Source of the DNA: a virus
Reading direction: 5' to 3' (one strand)
IMG/VR virus record: IMGVR_UViG_3300009161_000008
Location: 1-42,912 of that record
DNA: 42,912 nt
The notes beneath the pieces are model-generated. The model was given only the letters and a program-made list of their open reading frames with translations, was not told the DNA's origin and ran no database searches. Of the stretch, positions 4,589 to 32,015 are shown in pieces; within the stretch, counting starts at the first letter, position 1; every line of letters begins with the position of its first letter. A program made the position numbers and the translations under genes.

Positions 4589-4602
4589 TTTGGTTATGAA
4601 AG

Positions 4603-4674
4603 TAGCCCTGCTAGGAATCGAACCTAGATAACTCGCTTAGAAGGCGAGTGTTCTATCCATTGAACTACAGGGCT
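4603..4674 (-). tRNA. tRNA-Arg (anticodon UCU)
   Basis: Read on the minus strand, a full cloverleaf is present: a 7-bp acceptor stem (agccctg with cagggct), D-arm, anticodon stem ctcgc/gcgag with loop cttctaa giving anticodon TCU, and T-arm ctagg/cctag with TTCGATT loop. CCA is not encoded. It decodes AGA, the dominant Arg codon in the late genes. It sits between the ERF gene and the zinc-ribbon gene, apart from the other tRNAs. Confidence 0.95.
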
Positions 4675-4688
4675 ATTTCAAGTGTTAG

Positions 4689-5441
4689 TTAGAAGGGTAT
4701 TGCGTCCTCAGAGGGTTCATCATTCTCGCCATCGGACTCGGAGTTCTTGAGAACCCAGAGTGCTTGTGCGGATGACTTGAGTGTCAAATCCTTAATACCA
4801 ACCTTGCCCGTCTTTTCCCACGGCTTCGGTTCCCAAGTGTTAGCCCAGTAATTCAAGTCATTGGGGGCTAGGTCTTGCAGGGCAGTTCCCTTTGCCTTAC
4901 CGAATGGAACTGGCAATGAGAAGTCAACATCGCTAGACGATGCTACAGGAGCATTGTTGGTTGCAATCAACTTCTTAGGAGCAATAGCCTTGTAGGTAGC
5001 CTTTACAGCAGGAGCAGATGCAACAGTTGCATTAGCATCATCATCATCAGTAGCAATACCAGCAACAGCGGCGATAGAGTAACGGCGAAGGTAAGAGTAG
5101 ATAGAACCAGCCTCCTGTGCTTTGATTCCAGCAGTTACTGGGATGCTTGCTTCGAACTCCATCGAGCCACCTTGATTATGGATAACCTTTGTGGTAATGC
5201 CAATAGAGCCGTTATGACCAGTAGGGCATTGAATGATAGCCAGTCCGTGCTTTGCAAAGATTGGCTTAACGAGGGCAAGGTGTGCGTTAAGGGACGCATA
5301 ATTGCTCTTGTGGAACGGATTAACGCTATCTGCGTGGACTTCTGGAGTCTCTGCGATTGCATCAACAAGTGCCTTTTGTAAGGCGTTTTGTTGCTTAACC
5401 AATGTGAGTGAATAGGTGTCGAGTGTGTTTTCTAATGACAT
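4689..5441 (-). CDS. erf: ERF-family single-strand DNA annealing protein with SSB-like C-terminal tip
   Basis: A 250-residue recombinase that would bind and anneal single-stranded DNA for recombination-dependent replication. The ERF core (about residues 15-140) shows NYASLNAHL, GLAIIQ, a GSIYSYLRRYS segment and the acidic GIATDDDDAN end. Residues 178-230 (VPFGKAKG...LNYWANTW) resemble the small domain found C-terminal in exonuclease X-like proteins. The last residues, acidic and ending EDAIPF, resemble the C-terminal tip of bacterial SSB. The start is ATG 5441; the longer in-frame extension overlaps the DnaC-like gene and is not protein-like. Its partner is the exonuclease at 6826-7638. Confidence 0.9.
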   Translation of the reverse strand: MSLENTLDTYSLTLVKQQNALQKALVDAIAETPEVHADSVNPFHKSNYASLNAHLALVKPIFAKHGLAIIQCPTGHNGSIGITTKVIHNQGGSMEFEASIPVTAGIKAQEAGSIYSYLRRYSIAAVAGIATDDDDANATVASAPAVKATYKAIAPKKLIATNNAPVASSSDVDFSLPVPFGKAKGTALQDLAPNDLNYWANTWEPKPWEKTGKVGIKDLTLKSSAQALWVLKNSESDGENDEPSEDAIPF

Positions 5442-5487
5442 ATTATGTATGGGTGAGAAGTTAGGTATGGGTATAATTTGAATAAGG

Positions 5488-6291
5488 TCAAGGGGTATTT
5501 TCGTCTTTTTTCGTTGCCCCCACGCAATCAAAGAAGTCTTTGAAGCGACCAATGAGTGCCTTGCCGAGTTCAACATCATCGAATCGGTCAAGCAATCCAG
5601 ACGACGTAAAATTAGTCGTAATGATGGTTGGACGCTGGTTGATGGTTCGCTCGTCAATAACGGCAAACAAGTCACAGGCGATGCGGGCGGTCATCTTCTC
5701 CTTGCCCAAGTCATCAATGAATAGGAATGGGACATTAATCATATTCGTGACTAACTGGTTGTGGTTAAACTTGGCGAAGCCCTCCTCGATGTTCTGTTCG
5801 AACTTACGCATCGTGTTGAATTGCTGACGCTTGTAGTTAGCCTTCCAGTAGCGACGAGACACTTCCCACGCCGCACGAGACTTACCTAAGCGGGTAGTGC
5901 CGTGAAGCAACAGAGAACGCTTACCCCACGAAGCCCAGTTTGTAGCCACATCACGCATCTTGGGACAGGGGATTTTATCTGCTACTGTATCTTGAAACAC
6001 TACTGGCATACCAATGGGTTCGTGTGCCCAAGTTAAGCGACTATAGCGAGAGTCATTCTCCCAAGTATATTGGTCCTTACAGGCGTAACAAAACCAGTCG
6101 GGCCAGATAATCTTACTGCCGTCCGTCATTGGCACTTTAAACGCCCCACAGGAGCATTTAGAAGGATTCGTGGTCACTTTCTGTGAGGGGCTTGGTCGGT
6201 TGCTTGGAACGATAGGAGTTTCCCCCGCTAGGAGGGAAGATACCAAGCCATCCATTTCGGATGCTGAGAATAATGGATTGTGTTGCGTCAT
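5488..6291 (-). CDS. DnaC-like AAA+ helicase loader
   Basis: A 267-residue ATPase. A Cys pair at 46/48 and another at 68/71 suggest an N-terminal zinc knuckle. The AAA+ core has Walker A GTTRLGKS (131-138), Walker B FLFIDDLG (189-196), a sensor-1-like TTNF (226-228) and an Arg-finger-like GRF. This is the DnaC/IstB-type organisation, and the protein would load the host DnaB-type helicase. It lies next to the O-like initiator, as lambda P lies next to O. The chosen ATG 6291 makes a 134-base overlap with that gene. A later ATG at 6252 is possible. Confidence 0.88.
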   Translation of the reverse strand: MTQHNPLFSASEMDGLVSSLLAGETPIVPSNRPSPSQKVTTNPSKCSCGAFKVPMTDGSKIIWPDWFCYACKDQYTWENDSRYSRLTWAHEPIGMPVVFQDTVADKIPCPKMRDVATNWASWGKRSLLLHGTTRLGKSRAAWEVSRRYWKANYKRQQFNTMRKFEQNIEEGFAKFNHNQLVTNMINVPFLFIDDLGKEKMTARIACDLFAVIDERTINQRPTIITTNFTSSGLLDRFDDVELGKALIGRFKDFFDCVGATKKDENTP

Positions 6292-6829
6292 TTTCGTTTA
6301 GGTTGGATAGGAATTCAATTTGTTGTTTGATTGTTGTTGGTGTTAGTGGTTTCTTGCGTTCGTTGCGGTATTGCATCCAGTCGTTCCAGACTTTGCCGAA
6401 GGCTTCTGAATGAGGAACAGGTTGAAGGAGCAAACCCTTTGTATCTATATTACTATGTTTATCTTTAGTCTTATATGGTGCTAGTTTTCCGGCGGGGGGG
6501 CGATTGTTTTCTGGCGGGGGGGCGATTGTTTTCTGCTGGGGGGGTAGGAAGGATGCCGAGGAACAAGTGCGGATGGTTCGAGTGCCACATTCGTTGATTA
6601 CTCGGTGAATATAATTCTTCTTCACCAAGTCTCCGATAGACGCACGAACCGATGATTCAGACAGTCCTAGCATATTTCCAATGTATTCATTGCTCGCAAA
6701 GCAACCCTTGTCGTTGTCAAGCGACTGGATAATTGCGAAGATAATCTTGCCAGACGCAGAAATGTCTGCGTCCAGCAAAACTTCACGAGGGATGAATACC
6801 CCTGCAAACATTGGTTTATTGTCGCTCAT
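6158..6829 (-). CDS. Lambda O-like replication initiator
   Basis: A 223-residue protein with an N-terminal winged-helix region (about residues 10-90, including ASNEYIGNMLGLSESSVRASI), a Pro-rich linker (95-118) and a C-terminal domain with the pattern seen in phage replication proteins (FGKVWNDWMQYR, KPLTPTTIKQQIEFL, IRNGWLGIFPP). It would bind origin iterons through the N-terminus and recruit the helicase loader through the C-terminus. The linker is encoded by three 22-bp DNA repeats, as in lambda O, where the origin lies inside the gene. ATG 6829 overlaps the exonuclease stop as ATGA. Confidence 0.8.
   Translation of the reverse strand: MSDNKPMFAGVFIPREVLLDADISASGKIIFAIIQSLDNDKGCFASNEYIGNMLGLSESSVRASIGDLVKKNYIHRVINECGTRTIRTCSSASFLPPQQKTIAPPPENNRPPAGKLAPYKTKDKHSNIDTKGLLLQPVPHSEAFGKVWNDWMQYRNERKKPLTPTTIKQQIEFLSNLNENDATQSIILSIRNGWLGIFPPSGGNSYRSKQPTKPLTESDHESF
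6437..6481. other. AT-rich stretch beside the iterons, candidate unwinding element
   Basis: Immediately to one side of the iteron array lies an AT-rich run (about 6441-6480) inside the initiator gene. Lambda has the same arrangement, with iterons followed by an AT-rich strand-opening region. A closely similar AT-rich stretch flanks the second iteron block (16771-16806), supporting function at the DNA level. Unwinding is inferred, not shown. Confidence 0.5.
6482..6547. repeat. Three tandem 22-bp iterons inside the initiator gene (candidate origin)
   Basis: Three direct repeats of 22 bp occupy 6482-6503, 6504-6525 and 6526-6547. Each has a T4 run, a (c/t)(c/t)GGCG-type core and a G7 run. Because 22 is not a multiple of three, each copy is read in a different frame and the peptides differ (PPQQKTIA, PPPENNR, PPAGKLA). 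The conservation is therefore in the DNA, not the protein. The position between the DNA-binding and C-terminal domains matches lambda ori in gene O. Confidence 0.75.
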
Positions 6830-7638
6830 TCAACAATGATAGGCGAACTCTCGGCAGGAAGTCCAGCGTAGATTCCAGTTTCTTTGGCGTTCTGCATACG
6901 CACCAACTCAACATCTACAACCTGCTGAACCTCATCAATACGCCATTGAGGTAATTCGTAGAAACCAATCGAGTAAGGCTCTTTCTTCTCGATGAAGGCA
7001 AACAGGAACTTGGGCTTCGTGCCACTTACGATTTCAACACCCTTCTGGTAGAAGAAGGCTTGCACGTCGTAACCCTTCGAATAAATCTCAGACTTAACGG
7101 TTCGCTTAGTAGGAGTGTCGTTGATAGTCTTCCAGTCGATGATTACGTTTTGGCTGGCGTTGTAGAAATCCAAGCGACCCTTAATCTTAACGCCAAGATA
7201 TTCACACTCAAAACCTGCTTCTACGTAAAGATTATCATTCCAGTCATTGCGTAATTTCCAGAACTGATTCTCACGGACACGGCTCATCATACCATCAACC
7301 ATTGCAACTTCTTCTTGGAACAGGAAGTTATCTTGCTTTGCATTCAAGCCAGAAGTGAATTCAGTCCAAGCAAGTTTACCAGCAGTCGTTCGGCGGTCAA
7401 CATCTGGAGCGAACATATAACGCTGTGGGAAAATGTCTGGTTCAAGGATTGCCATATGAACGGCAGTCCCGATACGGAACGCATCGCCAACCTTTTCGTC
7501 TGCCTTGCCGTCAATCCAAGTCTTGTAGTGAAGCGGGCTTACCAGAAACTTCTTGAGGGACGAGGCGTTGATGCCAGTCCATCCGTCATACATTGTTTGA
7601 CCGATTTTATTAACTAACTGTCCTGTTTTGATGTGCAT
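6826..7638 (-). CDS. RecE-like PD-(D/E)XK exonuclease
   Basis: A 270-residue nuclease. The N-terminus has the SSLKKFLVSPLHY and FRIGTAVHMAILEP motifs typical of exodeoxyribonuclease VIII-type phage nucleases. The catalytic core is GRLDFYN (Asp157) followed by IIDWKT (Asp168, Lys170). It would resect double-stranded DNA ends to produce single strands for the ERF annealing protein encoded in the same operon. ATG 7638 is chosen because it begins the conserved part and avoids an unsupported ten-residue extension. The stop overlaps the initiator start as ATGA. Confidence 0.88.
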   Translation of the reverse strand: MHIKTGQLVNKIGQTMYDGWTGINASSLKKFLVSPLHYKTWIDGKADEKVGDAFRIGTAVHMAILEPDIFPQRYMFAPDVDRRTTAGKLAWTEFTSGLNAKQDNFLFQEEVAMVDGMMSRVRENQFWKLRNDWNDNLYVEAGFECEYLGVKIKGRLDFYNASQNVIIDWKTINDTPTKRTVKSEIYSKGYDVQAFFYQKGVEIVSGTKPKFLFAFIEKKEPYSIGFYELPQWRIDEVQQVVDVELVRMQNAKETGIYAGLPAESSPIIVE

Positions 7639-7683
7639 ATGTGGTGTGGGTGAAAGCACAGTATCCACATAATGAAGGGCTGG

Positions 7684-8115
7684 TCAAGGGGCAATCTGCT
7701 TTAATTTTATCAAGATTTTCGGAGTGCTGGAATGCTTCTTGGAAGTCGTCTTTAGGCAGATGATAGAGTCATCCACTAGGAATCCTTCGTCCGTAAGTGA
7801 ATCGAGGACAACCTTTTCCATATTATCTAAGTCAGGGCGAGTAGTCTTCCATTCCTCCTTTAACAAATATTTTTGAGGAGTGCTTTTATTCCAAGGAAAC
7901 TTAAACTCTATGTTTACTTCAGTTGGACAATCCCAGGGCTTTGCCGGTCTATGCTTTCTAATCTTTAACTTAAACTCTTCAATCCATTCTTTAATGGCAC
8001 TCTTAGCAAACTTACCTACAAACATCTGACCAGATTTACGTCTCATTATTCGTAAAGATGATTGATGTGTAGCCTTGGTGGGAATGATATTGACATCTAT
8101 TATGATTTCGTCCAT
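7684..8115 (-). CDS. rusA: RusA-type Holliday junction resolvase
   Basis: A 143-residue protein with the RusA signature: RPDLDNMEKVVLDSL (residues 93-107) followed by DDS (115-117) and a basic segment (KTTSKKH). The acidic residues bind metal and cleave four-way junctions made during recombination and replication. It is the first gene of the leftward operon and fits functionally with the exonuclease and ERF. ATG 8115 is chosen over an in-frame TTG nine bases earlier. Only 23 bases separate it from the divergent gene at 8139. Confidence 0.88.
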   Translation of the reverse strand: MDEIIIDVNIIPTKATHQSSLRIMRRKSGQMFVGKFAKSAIKEWIEEFKLKIRKHRPAKPWDCPTEVNIEFKFPWNKSTPQKYLLKEEWKTTRPDLDNMEKVVLDSLTDEGFLVDDSIICLKTTSKKHSSTPKILIKLKQIAP

Positions 8116-8120
8116 ATTAT
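8090..8120 (+). promoter_or_regulatory. Candidate sigma70-type promoter for rightward genes
   Basis: TTGACA at 8090-8095 and TATTAT at 8115-8120 are separated by 19 bases, longer than the usual 17. It reads toward the gene at 8139 and lies within the start of the resolvase gene, because the divergent intergenic gap is only 23 bases. The match is good at the hexamers, but the spacing lowers confidence. Confidence 0.4.
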
Positions 8121-8138
8121 GCAACTACACCAATATTT

Positions 8139-10822: not shown

Positions 10823-10893
10823 ACCCGCATCGTGTAATGGTAGCACGGAAGGTTTTGGTCCTTCTAGTCTAGGTTCGAGTCCTAGTGCGGGTA
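10823..10893 (+). tRNA. tRNA-Gln (anticodon UUG)
   Basis: Acceptor stem acccgca/tgcgggt, anticodon stem gaagg/ccttc with loop ttttggt (anticodon TTG), and T-arm ctagg/cctag with TTCGAGT loop. CCA is not encoded. First of five closely spaced tRNAs. Confidence 0.93.
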
Positions 10894-10907
10894 TGTTCTT
10901 TCACATC

Positions 10908-10992
10908 AGAGGGTTGGCAGAGTGGTCTATTGCGTCAGTCTTGAAAACTGAAGTGGGTAACACCACCATCCGTTCAAATCGGATACCCTCTA
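10908..10992 (+). tRNA. tRNA-Ser (anticodon UGA)
   Basis: Acceptor stem agagggt/accctct, anticodon stem tcagt/actga with loop cttgaaa (anticodon TGA), a long variable arm typical of tRNA-Ser, and T-arm atccg/cggat. The 85-base length fits a class II tRNA. Confidence 0.93.
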
Positions 10993-10998
10993 CTTTTC

Positions 10999-11071
10999 GG
11001 GCGTGTAACTCAGCGGTTAGAGTGGAGTCTTTATAAGGCTTAAGTCGGGGGTTCGATTCCCCTCACGCCCA
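10999..11071 (+). tRNA. tRNA-Ile (anticodon UAU)
   Basis: Acceptor stem gggcgtg/cacgccc, anticodon stem gagtc/ggctt (with wobble pairs) with loop tttataa giving anticodon TAT for the ATA codon, and T-arm ggggg/cccct. A UAU anticodon is used instead of the more common modified CAU tRNA for ATA. Confidence 0.92.
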
Positions 11072-11078
11072 TACTTTC

Positions 11079-11151
11079 ACGGCAGTAACTCAACTGGTAG
11101 AGTATCTGCTTTCCAAGCAGGATGTTGCGGGTTCGACCCCCGCTTGCCGTA
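11079..11151 (+). tRNA. tRNA-Gly (anticodon UCC)
   Basis: Acceptor stem acggcag/ttgccgt (terminal G-T), anticodon stem tctgc/gcagg with loop tttccaa (anticodon TCC), and T-arm gcggg/cccgc with TTCGACC loop. Confidence 0.93.
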
Positions 11152-11155
11152 ATTT

Positions 11156-11227
11156 GCATCTGTAATTCAATGGTAGAATACCTGTTTTGTAAACAGGCTG
11201 TTGTCGGTTCAAGTCCGTCCAGATGCT
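11156..11227 (+). tRNA. tRNA-Thr (anticodon UGU)
   Basis: Acceptor stem gcatctg/cagatgc, anticodon stem cctgt/acagg with loop tttgtaa (anticodon TGT), and T-arm gtcgg/ccgtc with one T-T mismatch. Last of the tRNA cluster. Confidence 0.92.
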
Positions 11228-11850
11228 CACTTTACCAAATAGATTCATTCAAATCAAAACTGTAACGCTATTATACATTACATTTACCAAATAGATTCTA
11301 CCAAATCAAAACTGTAACGCTATTAATAGTAGACTGACCCCTGGCCCACCAGCGGACGCGGAAAAAATAAAAGTCAGAAAAATACAAAACACACCAAACA
11401 CCGGCTGCTACTAATCAGTATCTGACCGAAATACAACTATTCCAAACAACTGCAAATATGTAAAACGCTGTAAACTTAAAGAAGAGTGATTGCTACCTGA
11501 TTGAAATTGCCTAGTTAAGTTTTACCTACGTCAACAATACATTTACTGTATGTTCTAGACTTGTTGTGAATTATATAATTACGTCGATTTACGTTTACTG
11601 CATTTAGTATTTTTGATTATTCAGTTGTTATATAATATTACTATTAACAATAGAGTCCATCTATCTATGTCCATTTAGTCAAATGATGGCTTGCGGTATT
11701 CAATACACTTGATACTATTACATCTATGAGTCCTAGTAGTGCAACTATACAAAGCAACAGTTCAATTAACTCGATTGATCGAACTATGCTATTGATTGTA
11801 ACAGTCGTTGCATAGCACCACTAGTATTCATACAACAAAACAATAAACAT
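11228..11850. other. AT-rich non-coding region upstream of the amidotransferase gene
   Basis: About 620 bases with no plausible gene on either strand. It holds the 43-bp direct repeat pair (11231-11325) with two GTAACGCT octamers, then AT-rich sequence with short inverted repeats. One potential hairpin (11784-11789 with 11810-11815, with an inner 4-bp stem) ends 35 bases before the amidotransferase ATG. It probably contains the promoter and control sites for the 11851-15223 genes, but I could not place a convincing promoter. Confidence 0.6.
11231..11325. repeat. Pair of 43-bp direct repeats with GTAACGCT octamers
   Basis: Copies at 11231-11273 and 11283-11325 match at 40 of 43 positions and begin 52 bases apart, close to five helical turns. 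Both start TTTACCAAATAGATTC and end with GTAACGCTATTA. The same octamer recurs in the array at 15408-15685 beyond the amidoligase genes, suggesting a common DNA-binding protein. Confidence 0.85.
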
Positions 11851-12948
11851 ATGTGTAAGATGATTGCAATTAGCCGTATTGCTACTAAAAATAGCAAACA
11901 GGCATCAGCACTAGTGCTGAAAATGTCCCTATTACTAGGGGCATCACAAAAAGATGGATTCGGTTATTCTATTAAACATCAAGGCGGTCAATACACGGAA
12001 CGGTATCTTTCACCAGATGCTGTTGCTGGTATGGGCACTCTTAAAGAGAGCGTTGATATGCTTAAGACGAATATCAAAACGAAACTAGTCGAAGGAATCG
12101 ACTTTGATGTGAATGGTAGCAAACCTAAAAAGGGTGCAATTCACGGTTCTATTATTGCTCACGGCCGAACTGCTACTTGCAGTAAGACTATTGAGAACAC
12201 TCATCCATTCACTGGTTCTAACGAACACGGGACTTATACGATTGCACATAATGGTGTAGTCGAGTGGTCTGGTGTAAAACTACCATTACATACTACCTGC
12301 GATTCGGAGCATATCCTTAATTGCTTCCTTCACCTTAACGGCGAGCAATCCTTTAAAGATGGTCTTGCTGGTTATGCTGCAGTTGTAGGATTTGATTCAA
12401 TCGGTAATATGTTCGTATTACGAGATAACCGAGCACCACTATATATGTCGTATATCGTCGAATTAGACAGTTACGTCATTTGCACAGATAAGACGCATTG
12501 TTCCGAATTGACCAAGATGTTGTGCGACTTTAATTCGATCAAAAATCCTAATGTATCAACTCCAATGATGCTAGCGGACTATGTAAAGCACGTGTTTCAA
12601 GCAAATGGTGAAGTCACCTCATCGGAGTTTCCCAAGTTCAATAGTGCTATGTCTTATGCTAGCACCGCTAGTGTTTACCGGAGTCTTGGTAGTGCTGGTG
12701 CTAGTGGTTATACTGGTGGTTATAGCGGTGGTTATTCACCAGGAACATACAAGTCCTATGTTCCATATACTCCTCCTACTCCTATCACCCCTGCTACTCC
12801 TAGCACTCCTGCTAAAGAACCAGAAGAAGTAGTCACAGAATCCGAGAAAGCGATGTTAGACGCTTATCACAAGCGTTCGATGGAACAGTCGAAAAAGAAT
12901 AGTCGTAAGCAAACCAAGGCTTGGAAGGATTCCGACTGGGGCTACTAA
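11851..12948 (+). CDS. Class II glutamine amidotransferase (Ntn-type)
   Basis: A 365-residue protein. Removal of Met1 would expose Cys2, the nucleophile that releases ammonia from glutamine in class II amidotransferases. Supporting motifs are DGFGYSI (35-41), HGRTAT (104-109), NTHPF (116-120), AHNGVV (132-137) and CDSEH (150-154), in the family order. The domain ends near residue 240. The C-terminal third is low complexity (Gly/Tyr/Ser repeats, then Thr/Pro repeats) with a basic tail. No synthetase domain is fused, so the ammonia is probably passed to the amidoligase encoded next. The use of ACTAGT-like codon pairs differs from the structural genes. Confidence 0.88.
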   Translation: MCKMIAISRIATKNSKQASALVLKMSLLLGASQKDGFGYSIKHQGGQYTERYLSPDAVAGMGTLKESVDMLKTNIKTKLVEGIDFDVNGSKPKKGAIHGSIIAHGRTATCSKTIENTHPFTGSNEHGTYTIAHNGVVEWSGVKLPLHTTCDSEHILNCFLHLNGEQSFKDGLAGYAAVVGFDSIGNMFVLRDNRAPLYMSYIVELDSYVICTDKTHCSELTKMLCDFNSIKNPNVSTPMMLADYVKHVFQANGEVTSSEFPKFNSAMSYASTASVYRSLGSAGASGYTGGYSGGYSPGTYKSYVPYTPPTPITPATPSTPAKEPEEVVTESEKAMLDAYHKRSMEQSKKNSRKQTKAWKDSDWGY

Positions 12949-13013
12949 TCATTAGGTTTGATCAAAATCCTTCAATTCATCAATTACCATAGTTCAAAAA
13001 CAGAACTAAATTG

Positions 13014-13050
13014 AGTTTTAAGGCATCCCTAGTAATAGGGATGTAAAACT
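13014..13050 (+). promoter_or_regulatory. Long stem-loop between amidotransferase and amidoligase genes
   Basis: Two 7-bp helices are stacked with a three-base bulge: 13014-13020 pairs with 13044-13050, and 13024-13030 with 13037-13043, around a six-base loop. It ends 14 bases before the amidoligase ATG at 13065. The bases after it are pyrimidine-rich but not a proper T-run, so it may be a weak attenuator, an mRNA processing or stability element, or a translation control hairpin. Confidence 0.6.
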
Positions 13051-13064
13051 TTCCCCCCTTTCCT

Positions 13065-14606
13065 ATGAATCCGGATAATCCTACAATCAGTAGCGACCCG
13101 AGTGAAGTAGTAAAAACCAAAAAACAAGAAAACATGAGTCAAGTAGTTAGTAATAATGACAAGAAGGAACAACTCCTTCTTTCCAATAACCCCACGCTTA
13201 AGAAGAAACAGTTGGAAGTGTTCAGTATGTTGGTTACTAATACTCGTATTGGTCGCCAATTCCGCACGAAAGAAGAAGGACTAGCGGAAACGGTTTTCGT
13301 CTGGAACTCGAGTCCAGAGTGTGTTCGGAATAATCCGACCCTCATTAAGATGGTAGTAATGGGAAGCCAGTATTACGAGTATGACCAATGTGCAGACATT
13401 ACTATGCCTACTATTGTTAGCCGAGTTAACATTCTGCTACGTATGGAGAAGATTAAGTTAACTGGTAAGAAAACTAGTAACTTCCTTACTTGGCTTGGTA
13501 AGAATCATCAAATCGTAGCAAATACGTATGTCTACAGTCCGCAGGGATTGATTGATTGCTTGGAATCTGCTATTTATACGGATGAGATGGGCAATACAAT
13601 CCATCAAGACTGCAAGTTTACTAGTGATAGTGATAAGTTGACTGCTATTAATATGCACAACGACACTATTACTGTGGCTCGCTGGTTCGCTCGAATCCAT
13701 ATTCGTCGCAGTCGTCGTAAGGCTAGTTTCCTAGCAAACGGAGCAAATCAGTCTTTGCCTCAACGCTTCAATCGTATAATTGAGAATATCGTGCAAACCC
13801 GTCCGCACAACTGGATGCGTAGTCTTAATAGTCATAGCCTTGCTATTGCTAATCGACTCCGACCATCTGGTGAATGCCTAGGAATCGAGTTAGAGTTTGT
13901 TGCTACTCGTGGTAGTGATATCACGAATTGGGATTCAGATGGATTCCCTCATCACCCGTGGTTACAGTTTAAGGGTGATGGTTCGATTCGTAGTAATCAA
14001 ACAAACGAGTCGTTAGCACATTACCAGGAATTGACGTGGTTCATCAACGGCTCTAGTCCGAAGGATTGGAAGTCAATGCAGGAAGTGTTAAAGACTATGA
14101 CTGATAACGGTGCTAAGGTTAATAACACTTGTGGGAGTCACGTTCATATTGATATGCGTCATCGCACGAGTCAGTCGGCTTTACGCACCGCTACTAAACT
14201 GCGTGATGCTATTAATGGTTGGGCACATCGAACTGTGTCTTTCACCCGTTCCCACAATCACTACTGTGGCATTGACCGCGACCATCACGGTAATCGCTAT
14301 ACTGCTGTCAATACCCAATGCCTAACGGAGCATAATACTGTAGAAGTCCGACTAGGTATGCCAACACTCAACTTCCACAAGTTGAAGTATTGGTGTGCCT
14401 TGATGCAATACTTGGCTAAACCTTATACTAGTGTTGCTACATTCGAGGACTTCATGCAGTCCGATGCTCCGTTTGACTTGAAGCATTACGTCATTCAACG
14501 CATCCTTAAGTTCCAACCAACCTATGTAGCAGCATCATTGCCTGTATTGAAAGATTTCGATACTTATGCGATTGCTGTTATGTCACAAGAAGGGACTATC
14601 GAATAA
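13065..14606 (+). CDS. Putative amidoligase (COOH-NH2 ligase, glutamine-synthetase-like fold)
   Basis: A 513-residue protein. The C-terminal part (from about residue 268) has amidoligase-family motifs: GIELEF (about 273), a GDGS stretch followed by an ELTW segment (about 305-330), GSHVHIDM (about 357), RY-x-AVN (about 408) and TVEVRLG (about 425). These correspond to metal/ATP-binding acidic and His residues of the GS-like fold, which joins a carboxylate to an amine or ammonia. The first 260 residues are an unrecognised basic helical region. The adjacent amidotransferase would supply ammonia. ATG 13065 is used; ATG 13134 is an alternative. Confidence 0.8.
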   Translation: MNPDNPTISSDPSEVVKTKKQENMSQVVSNNDKKEQLLLSNNPTLKKKQLEVFSMLVTNTRIGRQFRTKEEGLAETVFVWNSSPECVRNNPTLIKMVVMGSQYYEYDQCADITMPTIVSRVNILLRMEKIKLTGKKTSNFLTWLGKNHQIVANTYVYSPQGLIDCLESAIYTDEMGNTIHQDCKFTSDSDKLTAINMHNDTITVARWFARIHIRRSRRKASFLANGANQSLPQRFNRIIENIVQTRPHNWMRSLNSHSLAIANRLRPSGECLGIELEFVATRGSDITNWDSDGFPHHPWLQFKGDGSIRSNQTNESLAHYQELTWFINGSSPKDWKSMQEVLKTMTDNGAKVNNTCGSHVHIDMRHRTSQSALRTATKLRDAINGWAHRTVSFTRSHNHYCGIDRDHHGNRYTAVNTQCLTEHNTVEVRLGMPTLNFHKLKYWCALMQYLAKPYTSVATFEDFMQSDAPFDLKHYVIQRILKFQPTYVAASLPVLKDFDTYAIAVMSQEGTIE

Positions 14607-15836: not shown

Positions 15837-16187
15837 TTATGCGGATTCGCCAGTGTCCTCTTTCGTGCGAACCTCGGGTTCTAACTCGCAACCTAACTCG
15901 CCGACCGCATCAGTGACGGACTGGACGGAATCGGAATCCGCTTTCCAGTATACGACAGCAGGAGTCCACTGACCCTTGCAGTCGTCGATGTCCTCGAATC
16001 TGACGAGGATGATGGCGAGAACCTTACCACCAATCACTACCCGCCCACGCAGTGCCTTTTTGCCCATCCCCTTATCTTGGTAGAGGTTGACTGCCTCTAC
16101 GAGTGCTACCTGCTCGGGGTTCGACTGCTTTGCCTTTGCCAGTCGATACTCCTCGAACGTCATAACTGACTTTTTGGGGTTCGCCAT
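15837..16187 (-). CDS. Hypothetical protein, isolated leftward gene
   Basis: A 116-residue protein with a basic N-terminus (MANPKKSVMTFEEYRLAKAK), a central beta-type stretch (RGRVVIGGKVLAIILVRFED) and an acidic C-terminus. No family recognised. ATG 16187 is preferred, and an in-frame TTG at 16220 would add 11 residues. It is the only leftward gene in this half of the genome, has its own terminator, and is GC-richer than its neighbours, suggesting separate acquisition or separate regulation. Confidence 0.65.
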   Translation of the reverse strand: MANPKKSVMTFEEYRLAKAKQSNPEQVALVEAVNLYQDKGMGKKALRGRVVIGGKVLAIILVRFEDIDDCKGQWTPAVVYWKADSDSVQSVTDAVGELGCELEPEVRTKEDTGESA

Positions 16188-16421
16188 CGGATTTTGGTGT
16201 CTCCATTTACTGGGCTTCAATCACTACTCGGCTCGGGTCAACTGACCCTTACTGATTCCGCTTTCGTTCGCTCTAGGCGTTCTACTCGGCTGGAACCCCC
16301 GCAGTTGGCGAGGAGTGATTAACTAGACCCTATCAATGAACAACACCACCATACAATCCGAACCTAGCGGGTATGACGATGCCTAATTTCAGTTATTTTT
16401 ACCCCCCCTTCCAGTCCAGTC

Positions 16422-16565
16422 AAACCCCAGTTTAGGGTGTCAATCGAAACACCCCATTTGACCCCTTCAAATGCCCCCTAGGAGGCGTTTTGATTCTCGG
16501 GTCATACCATTACCCCATCTAGCCTGTTTTGGGTGTCAAAACCGATGCCCGAAACCCCAGTTTAG
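16422..16565. repeat. Repeated 14-mer and 9-mer with hairpin potential
   Basis: AAACCCCAGTTTAG occurs at 16422-16435 and again at 16552-16565. GGGTGTCAA occurs at 16435-16443 and 16531-16539. The first GGGTGT pairs with ACACCC at 16449-16454 (8-base loop), and the second has a wobble-paired partner ATGCCC at 16545-16550. The repeats frame a 130-bp segment. Role unknown. Confidence 0.6.
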
Positions 16566-16657
16566 AACAATTCTAACTGGCGGGGCGGGGGGCGACCAGA
16601 GCCGGTAGCCGAGCCAGCCGCAAATCATCTTCACTTGCATAATTTATTGTAAAAAGG

Positions 16658-16699: not shown

Positions 16700-16806
16700 C
16701 CCCCCGCCAGTTTTCTGGCACCCCCCCCACCTATTTTCTGGCGGCCCCCCCGCCAGTTTTCTAGCACCATATAAGACTAGAGTATATAAATAGATTATTA
16801 GATACA
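16700..16806. repeat. Second origin-like block (inverted duplicate of the initiator-gene iterons)
   Basis: Three units with about 23-bp spacing carry the T4 run and CTGGC/CTAGC core next to C7-8 runs. Two units form GCCAG-TTTT-CTGGC-type palindromes (16706-16719, 16752-16765). The 19-mer CTAGCACCATATAAGACTA (16761-16779) is identical to the reverse complement of 6466-6484, and the AT-rich bases after it (to about 16806) align with the AT-rich flank in the initiator gene, ending TAGATACA in both. Here the block is non-coding, so the match is not due to protein conservation. Confidence 0.75.
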
Positions 16807-16856
16807 GGCGGTGAATTAAATCGACATATTAAAAGTGATGTGTAGATTAGGAATCC

Positions 16857-17345
16857 ATGTTCAAAGAAAAGCACATCATTGCCGAGTATCCGTTCACCAA
16901 AACCGAGTTAGTTGCTTATCGGGCTTCTGACAAGTATAAGGAGGGGGTTGACTGGATAAAGGAGGAGGATAAAACGTTTCGACGTGGGGCGTTCTGTTGG
17001 ACGATGAAAGGGATGATAGCCTTGTTAGCGTCAAAAGGTCTGGAAGCACCCAAGGTAGAGGCGGAAGCGGTAACTCCAGTTGCTTACCCCACCCCCGATT
17101 CCCCTGTGGTGGCGGAGAAGGTTGTTTCTGTTCCTAAGTCAATAGGAATTGTCAAGCGTATCTACCCTAACCGCAGATTGATAGATTGCGAGATACGAGG
17201 GCAAAAGCACCGAGTAAAGGTCTGGGATAACCGATTTATGAAACTTGGGACATTCATAGATATCATTGAAAACCCGAGTGGGTATGTCAGCACCGCAAGA
17301 TTCGATGTCCGAGGAAGACCACATGGCGAAAAAAAAATCTCGTAA
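16857..17345 (+). CDS. Hypothetical two-domain protein
   Basis: A 162-residue protein with an N-terminal basic/aromatic region (about 1-63, with DKYKEGVDWIKEEDK and a WTMKGMIALL helix, possibly DNA-binding), a Val/Pro-rich linker (about 64-98) and a C-terminal small beta domain (about 99-162, IRGQKHRVKVWDNRF). No family recognised. First gene downstream of the second origin-like block, 50 bases away. It overlaps the next gene by 23 bases. Confidence 0.7.
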   Translation: MFKEKHIIAEYPFTKTELVAYRASDKYKEGVDWIKEEDKTFRRGAFCWTMKGMIALLASKGLEAPKVEAEAVTPVAYPTPDSPVVAEKVVSVPKSIGIVKRIYPNRRLIDCEIRGQKHRVKVWDNRFMKLGTFIDIIENPSGYVSTARFDVRGRPHGEKKIS

Positions 17346-18810: not shown

Positions 18811-20430
18811 ATGAGCACCATTCTTGACAAGATGAGTGAGCACCCGTTGCTAATAAAGCCAACGGAGGAGCAACTCAAGACTATGATTGAGCGTGATGGC
18901 ACAGAAAAGGTTGCTGAACTCATACAATTACGAGAAGACAAAATTAACGCCGAGAAGGAAGACCCCTATCGCCACGGATACGAGCCGTTCCATTGGAAAG
19001 ACGCAGATGAGATTTTGCAAAACAAGGAAGAACTGTTAATTCTTGGTGGAAATCGTGCAGGAAAGACTGAATATGCGGCTAAAAGAGCCATTTTTACGCT
19101 TTGTAACAAGCCTAATTCGATAGTTTGGTGTATCCACACTACTTCTCAGTCATCTATTCAGATGCAACAGAATGTTATTTGGAAATATATCCCGTCCGAA
19201 TACAAAACAATGAAGAAGGGACGTATTACAAATATCCAATACAGTCTAAAGAACGGATTTTCTCATAATTCCTTTGTGTTTCCTAACGGAAGCCAATGTA
19301 TTTTTATGAATTACGCACAGGACAAGGTTGTCATTGAAGGCGGAGAGCCAGACTTCATTTGGTGCGACGAACTTGTGCCCCTTGACTGGGTTCAAACCCT
19401 CAGATACCGCATTCTTACCAGAAGAGGTAGGTTGTTAATAACTTTCACTCCTATCGGGGGTTTCTCTCAAGTAGTCAAGGAGTATGTCAATGGCTGTAGG
19501 TTTACCAAAACCAAGAAAGCCGAGATACTTCCTCAGAACTTGATACACGTTGCTGGTTGTCCAAAGGGGCATATGCCTTATTTGGCTGAAGGTCGTTCAA
19601 AAACCTCTGGTATAATCTGGTTTCACTCAAAATTCAATGTTTACTCACCATTTGACCAGATGGTGAAGCAATTAGATAACAAAACCGACTATGAAAAGAA
19701 AATCCGAGCGTATGGGTGGGCACAAGCCCTCGTCGGTTCGCAATTCCCGATGTTCGGTGAAACGCACATCATCTCGGAAGATAAAATCCCCCAAGAAGGC
19801 ACGAACTATATGTCGTGCGACCCAGCGGGGGCGAGAAACTGGTTTATGCTCTGGTGCAAAGTCACGAAAGAAGGGGACTACTACATATACAGGGAATTCC
19901 CGGACGAGACTTACGGCGAGTGGGCACTTCCTGACTCTAAAGCAGATGGTAGAGAAGGCCCTGCACAGCGTTCGAGTGCTGGTCGCGGTATTGATGAGTA
20001 TAAAGGACTTATTCGAGGCTTTGAGGGAGGAGAAGAAGAAATAGAGGAGCGTTACATTGACCCTCGTGCTGGTGCTACTCAAGCAATCGGTAAGGATGGT
20101 GGAGTTACGCTTATCAACTTACTTGATGACGGAGAAGACCCAATGTATTTCAAGCCATCCGCAGGTATCAAGATTGACCAAGGTGTGTCAATCATAAATG
20201 ACTGGTTATACTTTGACCAAAGCCAGCCTATCACATATATAAACAAACCTAAGTTGTTTATCTCCGACAAGTGTCAAAACCTAATTTACTCAATGCGAGA
20301 GTGGACTGGAAGCGACGGAGACAAGGGTGCTTCTAAAGACCCTATTGACGCATTGAGATATATTGTGGTTATGAACCCAGTATATGAAGATTCTAACTCA
20401 TATAAGCCTCTTGGCGGAGGTTCTTATTGA
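18811..20430 (+). CDS. terL: Terminase large subunit
   Basis: A 539-residue packaging motor. Walker A is GGNRAGKT (79-86). Walker B with the catalytic Glu is DFIWCDE (181-187). The C-terminal RuvC-type nuclease begins with SCDPAG (Asp about 337), and a late acidic position lies in DPIDALRY (about 505-512). It would drive DNA into the prohead and cut concatemers. It precedes the portal by 30 bases. No classic small terminase lies immediately upstream; the HTH protein at 8139 is one candidate. Confidence 0.95.
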   Translation: MSTILDKMSEHPLLIKPTEEQLKTMIERDGTEKVAELIQLREDKINAEKEDPYRHGYEPFHWKDADEILQNKEELLILGGNRAGKTEYAAKRAIFTLCNKPNSIVWCIHTTSQSSIQMQQNVIWKYIPSEYKTMKKGRITNIQYSLKNGFSHNSFVFPNGSQCIFMNYAQDKVVIEGGEPDFIWCDELVPLDWVQTLRYRILTRRGRLLITFTPIGGFSQVVKEYVNGCRFTKTKKAEILPQNLIHVAGCPKGHMPYLAEGRSKTSGIIWFHSKFNVYSPFDQMVKQLDNKTDYEKKIRAYGWAQALVGSQFPMFGETHIISEDKIPQEGTNYMSCDPAGARNWFMLWCKVTKEGDYYIYREFPDETYGEWALPDSKADGREGPAQRSSAGRGIDEYKGLIRGFEGGEEEIEERYIDPRAGATQAIGKDGGVTLINLLDDGEDPMYFKPSAGIKIDQGVSIINDWLYFDQSQPITYINKPKLFISDKCQNLIYSMREWTGSDGDKGASKDPIDALRYIVVMNPVYEDSNSYKPLGGGSY

Positions 20431-30351: not shown

Positions 30352-31215
30352 ATGGAATTAACATACAGCATGGGCATTGAAAATGCCAGACGGCAAAACG
30401 CTGCACCTAATTATGGTGAGTTTATGACTGCTGATGCACAGCAGTATTACAATGAAAACATGGGGGCAATTGCAGCCCAGAAAAAGATTATTCCTGCGTC
30501 TATCCAAGCAGAGGAAGCAATGCTTCCGCAACTGCAAGGGTATCAAGCAAGGAGTATGGGTTCGCAATCTCAAAACCTACTTGGTCAATACCAAGGAATG
30601 CAGGATTACTCGCTACAAGCCCAACATCAGTATCAAAATCAGTTGATGGGAATTTACGGACAAGGCGGACAAATGGCTACTAATTACGCCGTTCAAAGTC
30701 TTGGACCACAGGGTGCTCAGAATTACAATATGTTCCAGCAACAGGCTGGCGAAGGTCTTGCAATGGGTTCTGGACTTGGTTACCAAGACCAAATGTATGC
30801 CGAGCAGTCCGCAAGAGCAGCAATGTCAGCCAGAGGATTGACAGGCAATCAAGCCGTTGGTCAAGAGGTGCTTAACTCTTATCAACTTGGAAATCAAAGA
30901 CTCCAACAGCGTCAAGCAATGGGTGCACAAGCATATCAAATGGCTGGTCAACAGCAATCTTTTGGTCATCAAGCCTATAATGCTCCAGCAATGCAAACGT
31001 CACAGGGTTTGTATGGGGTTGGAGAACTTTATGGTGCTACCCAGAACTCGTTCCAAAATATGGGTTCTCAATTCCTAACACCAGAGTCTCAATATCTTGC
31101 TAATATTAGAAGTAATAGAATTTCCCAAGAAAATGCAAATAAAGCGGCTAGCGCATCAAATACTGCTGGTATTGTTGGCGGTGTTGCTACTGTCGCTGCT
31201 GCCGCCTTCATTTAA
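30352..31215 (+). CDS. Gln-rich internal virion protein (gp14-like position)
   Basis: A 287-residue protein very rich in Gln, Ala, Gly, Met and Tyr, with a hydrophobic Ala/Val/Gly C-terminal segment (AGIVGGVATVAAAAFI) that could insert in a membrane. Composition and position just before the large ejection-type proteins resemble the T7 gp14 role of forming the outer-membrane part of the DNA ejection channel. Its stop overlaps the PAPS-reductase-family start as TAATG. Confidence 0.65.
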   Translation: MELTYSMGIENARRQNAAPNYGEFMTADAQQYYNENMGAIAAQKKIIPASIQAEEAMLPQLQGYQARSMGSQSQNLLGQYQGMQDYSLQAQHQYQNQLMGIYGQGGQMATNYAVQSLGPQGAQNYNMFQQQAGEGLAMGSGLGYQDQMYAEQSARAAMSARGLTGNQAVGQEVLNSYQLGNQRLQQRQAMGAQAYQMAGQQQSFGHQAYNAPAMQTSQGLYGVGELYGATQNSFQNMGSQFLTPESQYLANIRSNRISQENANKAASASNTAGIVGGVATVAAAAFI

Positions 31216-32015
31216 TGACAAAAGAGGAAAGAAGTCTTGATATAATTCAACGAGGACTTTCGTTGTCAAATAAGTCGGCGGTTGCTTGGTCTGGCGGAAA
31301 GGACTCTATGGTTCTTTTGCATTTGATGCTTAAGGCGGGCAGTAGATTCCCTGTAATCTTCTTTAGAGAACCTTGGCAGCCTTGGAAGTATAAATTCCAA
31401 GATAGGACTATACAAGAGTATGGGCTTGAGGCATATACTTGGCATCCTCAAAAGTCGTCCTTTCAACAAACTGGAGATGAGTTTGAAATTCAAAATGTCT
31501 ATTCATTTGACACAACGATTGTTACTTGCCCAAGCGGTATAACAAAACCTGTTGTTGGAAAGCCTTGGGTATGTTCGTTGGATATGCTTAATAGACCTAA
31601 GCAAATGAATCTTATCTCTGGATGGGATATGGTATGGGTTGGTCACAAGGCTTGCGATAGCGACCCTATCTATGGTGGAGACGCTGGGACTAGAACTGAA
31701 GTTAGAGTTGTTCCGGGACAAGCCACTATGATGTTTCCCCTTCGTGATTGGACTCACGAAGATATTTGGAATTATACTGTAGCCAACAACATTCCGATTG
31801 ACCTTGACAGATATGAACAAGTTAACGGAAAATGGGGCGAGAAAGTTGACAAACTCACCAATGTTGACTATGTTCACGCTTGCACCGCTTGTGTTGACAG
31901 AAGGGCTACGGCAAACAAGTTTGTTTACTGTCCTAAGTATAATGGAGTAGTGGAAAACTGCTCTGATAAACTTCCTTGGTTTGACCAAGCAATCCCTTCT
32001 TATATGAAGGACTAA
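31215..32015 (+). CDS. PAPS reductase / ATP-pyrophosphatase family protein
   Basis: A 266-residue protein with the PP-loop SGGKDS (residues 26-31), a central TEVRVVPGQATMMFPLRDWTHEDIW-type segment, and C-terminal Cys pairs (HACTACVDRR and YCPKYNGVVENC). The family adenylates a substrate with ATP or handles adenylyl sulfate. Phage copies have no firmly known substrate. Its position inside the virion operon, with overlaps to its neighbours, suggests late expression. A DNA phosphorothioation enzyme is less likely, as no partner dnd genes are present. Confidence 0.85.
   Translation: MTKEERSLDIIQRGLSLSNKSAVAWSGGKDSMVLLHLMLKAGSRFPVIFFREPWQPWKYKFQDRTIQEYGLEAYTWHPQKSSFQQTGDEFEIQNVYSFDTTIVTCPSGITKPVVGKPWVCSLDMLNRPKQMNLISGWDMVWVGHKACDSDPIYGGDAGTRTEVRVVPGQATMMFPLRDWTHEDIWNYTVANNIPIDLDRYEQVNGKWGEKVDKLTNVDYVHACTACVDRRATANKFVYCPKYNGVVENCSDKLPWFDQAIPSYMKD

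Follow-up and report, generated by a model that had tools for sequence, protein, structure and literature searches.

A second, inverted copy of an initiator-gene repeat block before the late operon of a phage is probably an origin module resembling SPP1 oriR

The window, by which we mean the whole stretch of 42,912 nucleotides analysed (IMG/VR record IMGVR_UViG_3300009161_000008), contains two matching blocks of GC-rich repeats followed by AT-rich DNA: block A inside the gene of a lambda-O-like replication initiator, and block B in front of the late operon. Because related phages keep the two copies matched, sequence comparison makes it almost certain that block B is functional. Since the layout of the genome is SPP1-like and the same kinds of proteins are encoded, block B is judged to work like oriR of the Bacillus phage SPP1; that is, it is probably a second initiator-bound origin module, serving as a late origin and/or a fork barrier in a switch from theta to sigma replication.

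The window begins and ends with the same 123 bases, and because of this terminal repeat it is taken to be a complete genome (42,789 unique bases), with the two blocks as the full count; no third block was found when the whole of this genome was searched. The 19-mer CTAGCACCATATAAGACTA occurs exactly twice in the window, once on each strand (table 1), where the chance expectation is 0.01 with up to three mismatches allowed. The original prediction stated that the two occurrences are exact reverse complements and that the flanking units and the AT-rich tail, up to a shared TAGATACA, also align in opposite orientation about 10 kb away; exact search confirmed the former and local alignment the latter, the distance between the inverted blocks being 10.3 kb. 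Each block consists of three GC-rich units of 22-23 bp with a dyad, followed by an AT-rich tail (80% AT in A and 82% in B, against 57% in the genome). The pieces common to both neighbourhoods are GCCCCCCCGCCAG units, dyads of the form GCCAG-WWWW-CTGGC and the end of the tail. The blocks differ in unit spacing (22 bp in A, 23 bp in B) and in the central four bases of the dyad units, which in the window are AAAA in A and TTTT in B. Just 0.18% of the 38-mers of the genome are as AT-rich as the tail of block B, and the dyads of this block fold strongly as single-stranded DNA (z = -6.3). A reading of the tail as a DnaA-trio element, prompted by TAGTAATAG strings in relatives, was rejected, the lag-3 identity being at shuffle level (z = 0.16).

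Table 1. Positions of the two blocks and of the genes and signals discussed in the text
Feature	Position	Strand	Basis or remark
Block B iteron array, dyad GCCAG-TTTT-CTGGC	16700-16768; units ~16700-16721, 16722-16744, 16745-16768	+	sequence comparison
Block B core 19-mer, exact inverted copy of 6466-6484	16761-16779	+	
Block B AT-rich tail, putative unwinding element	16769-16806	+	82% AT, ends TAGATACA
Block A iteron array inside initiator gene	6483-6543; units 6527-6543, 6505-6521, 6483-6499	-	22-bp spacing
Block A core 19-mer	6466-6484	-	
Block A AT-rich tail	6438-6477	-	80% AT
Lambda-O-like replication initiator gene, contains block A	6158-6829	-	PHROG 678 E 6.5e-21; Pfam HTH_36 E 2.9e-8
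DnaC-like helicase loader	5488-6291	-	PHROG 50 E 5.1e-17; IstB_IS21 E 7.4e-7
ERF single-strand annealing protein	4689-5675	-	Pfam ERF E 7.8e-19
Exonuclease VIII-like nuclease	6826-7668	-	PHROG 412 E 7.3e-38
RusA-like Holliday junction resolvase	7684-8124	-	PHROG 140 E 2.2e-25
Promoter-like pair TCGACA-16-TAGATT between block B and first late gene	16821-16848	+	consensus match 9/12 only; aligned in relatives
First late-operon gene	16857-17345	+	without family match
Large terminase (TerL), bait for relatives	18811-20430	+	Pfam Terminase_6N E 6.3e-9; PHROG 2

The units and tail of block A (6438-6543) lie entirely inside the initiator gene, the product of which has both a winged-helix N-terminal domain (HTH_36) and an O-like family match (PHROG 678); sequence search returned no relative with a solved structure. 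The minus-strand run of genes to which it belongs also encodes the RusA-like, exonuclease VIII-like, DnaC-like and ERF proteins, and this predicted set fits theta-to-sigma replication. Block B is located in non-coding DNA between the minus-strand ORF 15837-16220 and the first late gene, which opens the run leading to TerL, an SU10-type capsid protein and other structural genes. A 15-bp near-palindrome, TTAGAACAATTCTAA (16562-16576), which is kept as TTAGAAYNATTCTAA in L007, L008, L009 and G004 and is probably an operator, stands about 130 bp upstream of block B. A shared AT-rich element upstream of B was noticed by eye in relatives but not confirmed, since a pattern search for it gave no match in the window. 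Elsewhere the window has six tRNA genes (10823-11228 and 4602-4674), of which five (Gln, Ser, Ile, Gly, Thr) are clustered and the sixth, for Arg, is encoded on the opposite strand; a class-II glutamine amidotransferase-like gene adjoining an amidoligase-like gene (11851-14606), an unusual pair for a phage; and, inside the late region, a phosphoadenosine phosphosulfate reductase-like gene (31215-32015). Two TerL relatives of 51% identity (L133 and L135) are found on metagenome bins labelled Pedosphaera and Verrucomicrobia, from which a host among the Verrucomicrobiota is tentatively suggested.

To gather relatives, the initiator, TerL, the exact 19-mer and a degenerate form of the core were used as queries, and these yielded a set of related viral contigs; a DNA-level search of annotated phages gave no match. 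Every one of the 11 records with this initiator class carries block A in the initiator gene and block B upstream of the late operon, namely the window and ten relatives (G001, G002, G003, G004, G006, G009, G011, G013 and G033, all with units of the window type, and G029, whose units differ), and the coordinates place A and B 8.5-11.7 kb apart. Block B is also present in L007, L014, L131 and L081, where the initiator gene was not found; at least the first three of these are fragments. If this genome is viewed alone, the exact 19-mer appears recent, as it would if block B were a recent or inert duplicate of the origin, and recent copying was among the earlier suggestions. However, B is present throughout a group in which TerL identity to the window falls to 77%; therefore recent copying is unsupported, and block B is, by this comparison, old. 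Among the nearest relatives its units are as conserved as the flanks or more so, and B is conserved and co-varies with A in two clades. A recent duplication is rejected on this conservation, which already contradicts an inert copy as well; only short-tract conversion could keep such a copy matched. Overall, a recent or inert duplicate is highly improbable.

The co-variation between A and B was measured over 24 aligned bases comprising the core and the start of the tail. Identity between the two blocks averages 0.84 within a genome and is 0.63 (sd 0.04) with partners permuted between genomes (P = 2e-5, none of 50,000 permutations reaching the observed value), a result that is inflated by relatedness among the genomes; for this reason single parallel changes are the stronger point. 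The initiators of the window and G001 share 99% identity; the two genomes differ in a single core base (CTAG versus CTGG), and do so in both A and B. The change between G011 (CTAG) and G009 (CTGG) is likewise present in both copies, as is that between G013 (GGCGAC) and G002 (GGCACC). The parts most alike between A and B include the start of the AT tail. In G029 the initiator gene has units of another kind (GTGAAATGTATTTCCTA), and its block B matches them, with GGGGGGTGAAATGTATTTCCTA units and then TTTCCTACATATAGAATAGAGGATAG, which matches TTCCTACATATAGAACAGAGGATAAG of its block A; block B of G030 is as in G029. On the TerL tree these two genomes stand apart from the window clade, and the presence of B needs two changes. 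From this co-variation it is likely that the initiator binds both sites. Two of the earlier proposals, a second origin and selection on the DNA element itself, are thus well supported at the level of sequence, since B is conserved, co-varies with A and recurs with different units in a second clade.

A packaging or recombination target had also been proposed; in this reading block B would be a pac-like site, or one for recombination, in the vicinity of the terminase genes. B is indeed situated about 2 kb ahead of TerL, with dyads that form strong hairpins, but its units follow the initiator gene of the same genome and not the terminase, and relatives with 61-63% identical TerL are without it; hence such a target is very unlikely. 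Block B is accordingly, on the sequences compared, a trait of two clades and not of the whole TerL family. Three further unit types are present inside initiator genes (in G020-G022; in G014, G017 and G024; and in G016, G018 and G025), and a search of the whole records, some of them fragments, with their own units gave the initiator copy only. Where the region before the late operon could be read in these clades, it has no units, and tRNA genes or promoter-like DNA are found there. Relatives lacking the second block, which the original prediction had named as evidence against it, are therefore found only where the initiator gene carries other units, and none are found within the initiator class of the window. 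The clades with one copy thus show that this genome plan can in general do without a second site. By eye, tRNA-like genes occupy the place of block B before the first late gene in L049, L051 and L058, a clade with GCCGAAAAATCGGC units. Among L095-L108, related O-like initiator genes have at least five different iteron types at one and the same position, each followed by an AT-rich tail, and this diversity forms a natural series for the co-evolution of initiator and site.

The main rival to the origin reading is control of late transcription. Block B could be an initiator operator only, which represses or activates the late operon and ties late expression to the initiator level without origin activity. 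Block B is always at the start of the late operon; in most relatives, whichever of the two clades they belong to, it is no more than about 100-130 bp from the first late gene and next to the promoter-like pair. This constant position also suits transcription control; the promoter call, however, is a weak consensus match. The tail points towards the late gene in the window and in its closest relatives, whereas in four genomes (G003, G009, G011 and L014) block B is reversed relative to that gene, with units on both sides of the tail. An activator that needs a fixed geometry becomes less plausible with such reversal, which is in keeping with an origin or a fork barrier. Of the earlier suggestion of late-transcription control, the promoter-like pair between B and the late ATG thus speaks for it, and the flipped orientation speaks against it. 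Moreover, every B retains its AT tail, the start of which is one of the stretches that A and B share most closely; a plain operator would not need this feature, which counts for an origin module. On balance a pure operator seems rather unlikely. Orientation also bears on block B as a transcription terminator or attenuator hairpin: CTGGCGGCCCCCCCGCCAG-TTTT at 16738-16756 scores terminator-like, but the block is reversed in the four genomes, and the T-run is AAAA in the B of G013 and in the A copies, where the dyad is kept and the terminator feature lost. Because the T-run is not kept, this reading was rejected as extremely improbable.

GC skew was considered as a further marker of an origin module. 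In the window it is slightly negative in the interval from A to B and positive beyond it, as it is in most relatives for which enough sequence is available; on this pattern B would be near a skew minimum. In most of the relatives checked, the sign changes close to A and B. However, skew at third positions of the late genes is close to zero, and the measure is confounded by gene direction. Therefore, GC skew is suggestive only and is given little weight.

Arrangements comparable in part are found in other phages. The ori of phage lambda has iterons and an AT-rich region inside gene O, as block A has inside the O-like gene, but only a single such origin is known in lambda. Phage P4 has two separate repeat clusters, ori1 and crr, bound by one initiator; in that case, however, the initiator is the alpha protein, a primase-helicase, and crr is not known to be a full origin. 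Literature searches for further two-origin phages and for P4 crr found nothing more. SPP1, compared here by description, is the closest in layout, with one origin in the gene of its initiator G38P (gp38) and a second in non-coding DNA 12-13 kb away, repeats and an AT-rich unwinding element (putative in the window) at both sites, a genome of about 44 kb, and genes for a helicase loader, an exonuclease, an annealing protein and a resolvase (PMC6316719, PMC3485210). In the window the corresponding proteins are the DnaC-like, exonuclease VIII-like, ERF and RusA-like ones, block A is the candidate origin within the initiator coding sequence, and block B is the distant site with the same repeats and AT-rich element. 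Three differences are highlighted: first, block B heads the late operon and is 10.3 kb away and inverted; second, the units are dyads with C-runs; third, no phage DnaB-type replicative helicase, the counterpart of gp40, was found among the proteins scanned, which were part of the ORFs.

According to the SPP1 model, theta replication is initiated by G38P at oriL, within the gene for this protein. When bound at oriR, G38P may halt the fork and so set off sigma replication, aided by the exonuclease, the annealing recombinase and the resolvase (PMC3485210, PMC6316719). By analogy, the O-like initiator would bind the dyad units both of block A, in its own gene, and of block B, ahead of the late operon; once it had opened the AT tail, the DnaC-like loader would load the helicase. 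Block A would start theta replication, as in SPP1. Block B would come into play at a later stage and serve as a second origin, as a place of fork arrest by bound initiator, or as both, and the exonuclease, the ERF protein and the RusA resolvase would turn the stalled fork into concatemer-making (sigma) replication. An extended form, which we regard as unlikely, adds an early-to-late switch to the second origin, in which initiator assembly or fork arrest gates the adjoining late promoter; if this were true, concatemer formation and late gene expression would start together at one site.

SPP1 is the only studied phage found in our literature searches that has an origin in the initiator gene and a matching distant one, and what its second origin does is so far described by a model. 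The present phage group provides an independent comparative series, in which two clades with different units each have a matched second site and sister clades are without it. With this series the role of a second origin can be tested comparatively, and also with plasmids in which matched pairs are exchanged for mismatched ones.
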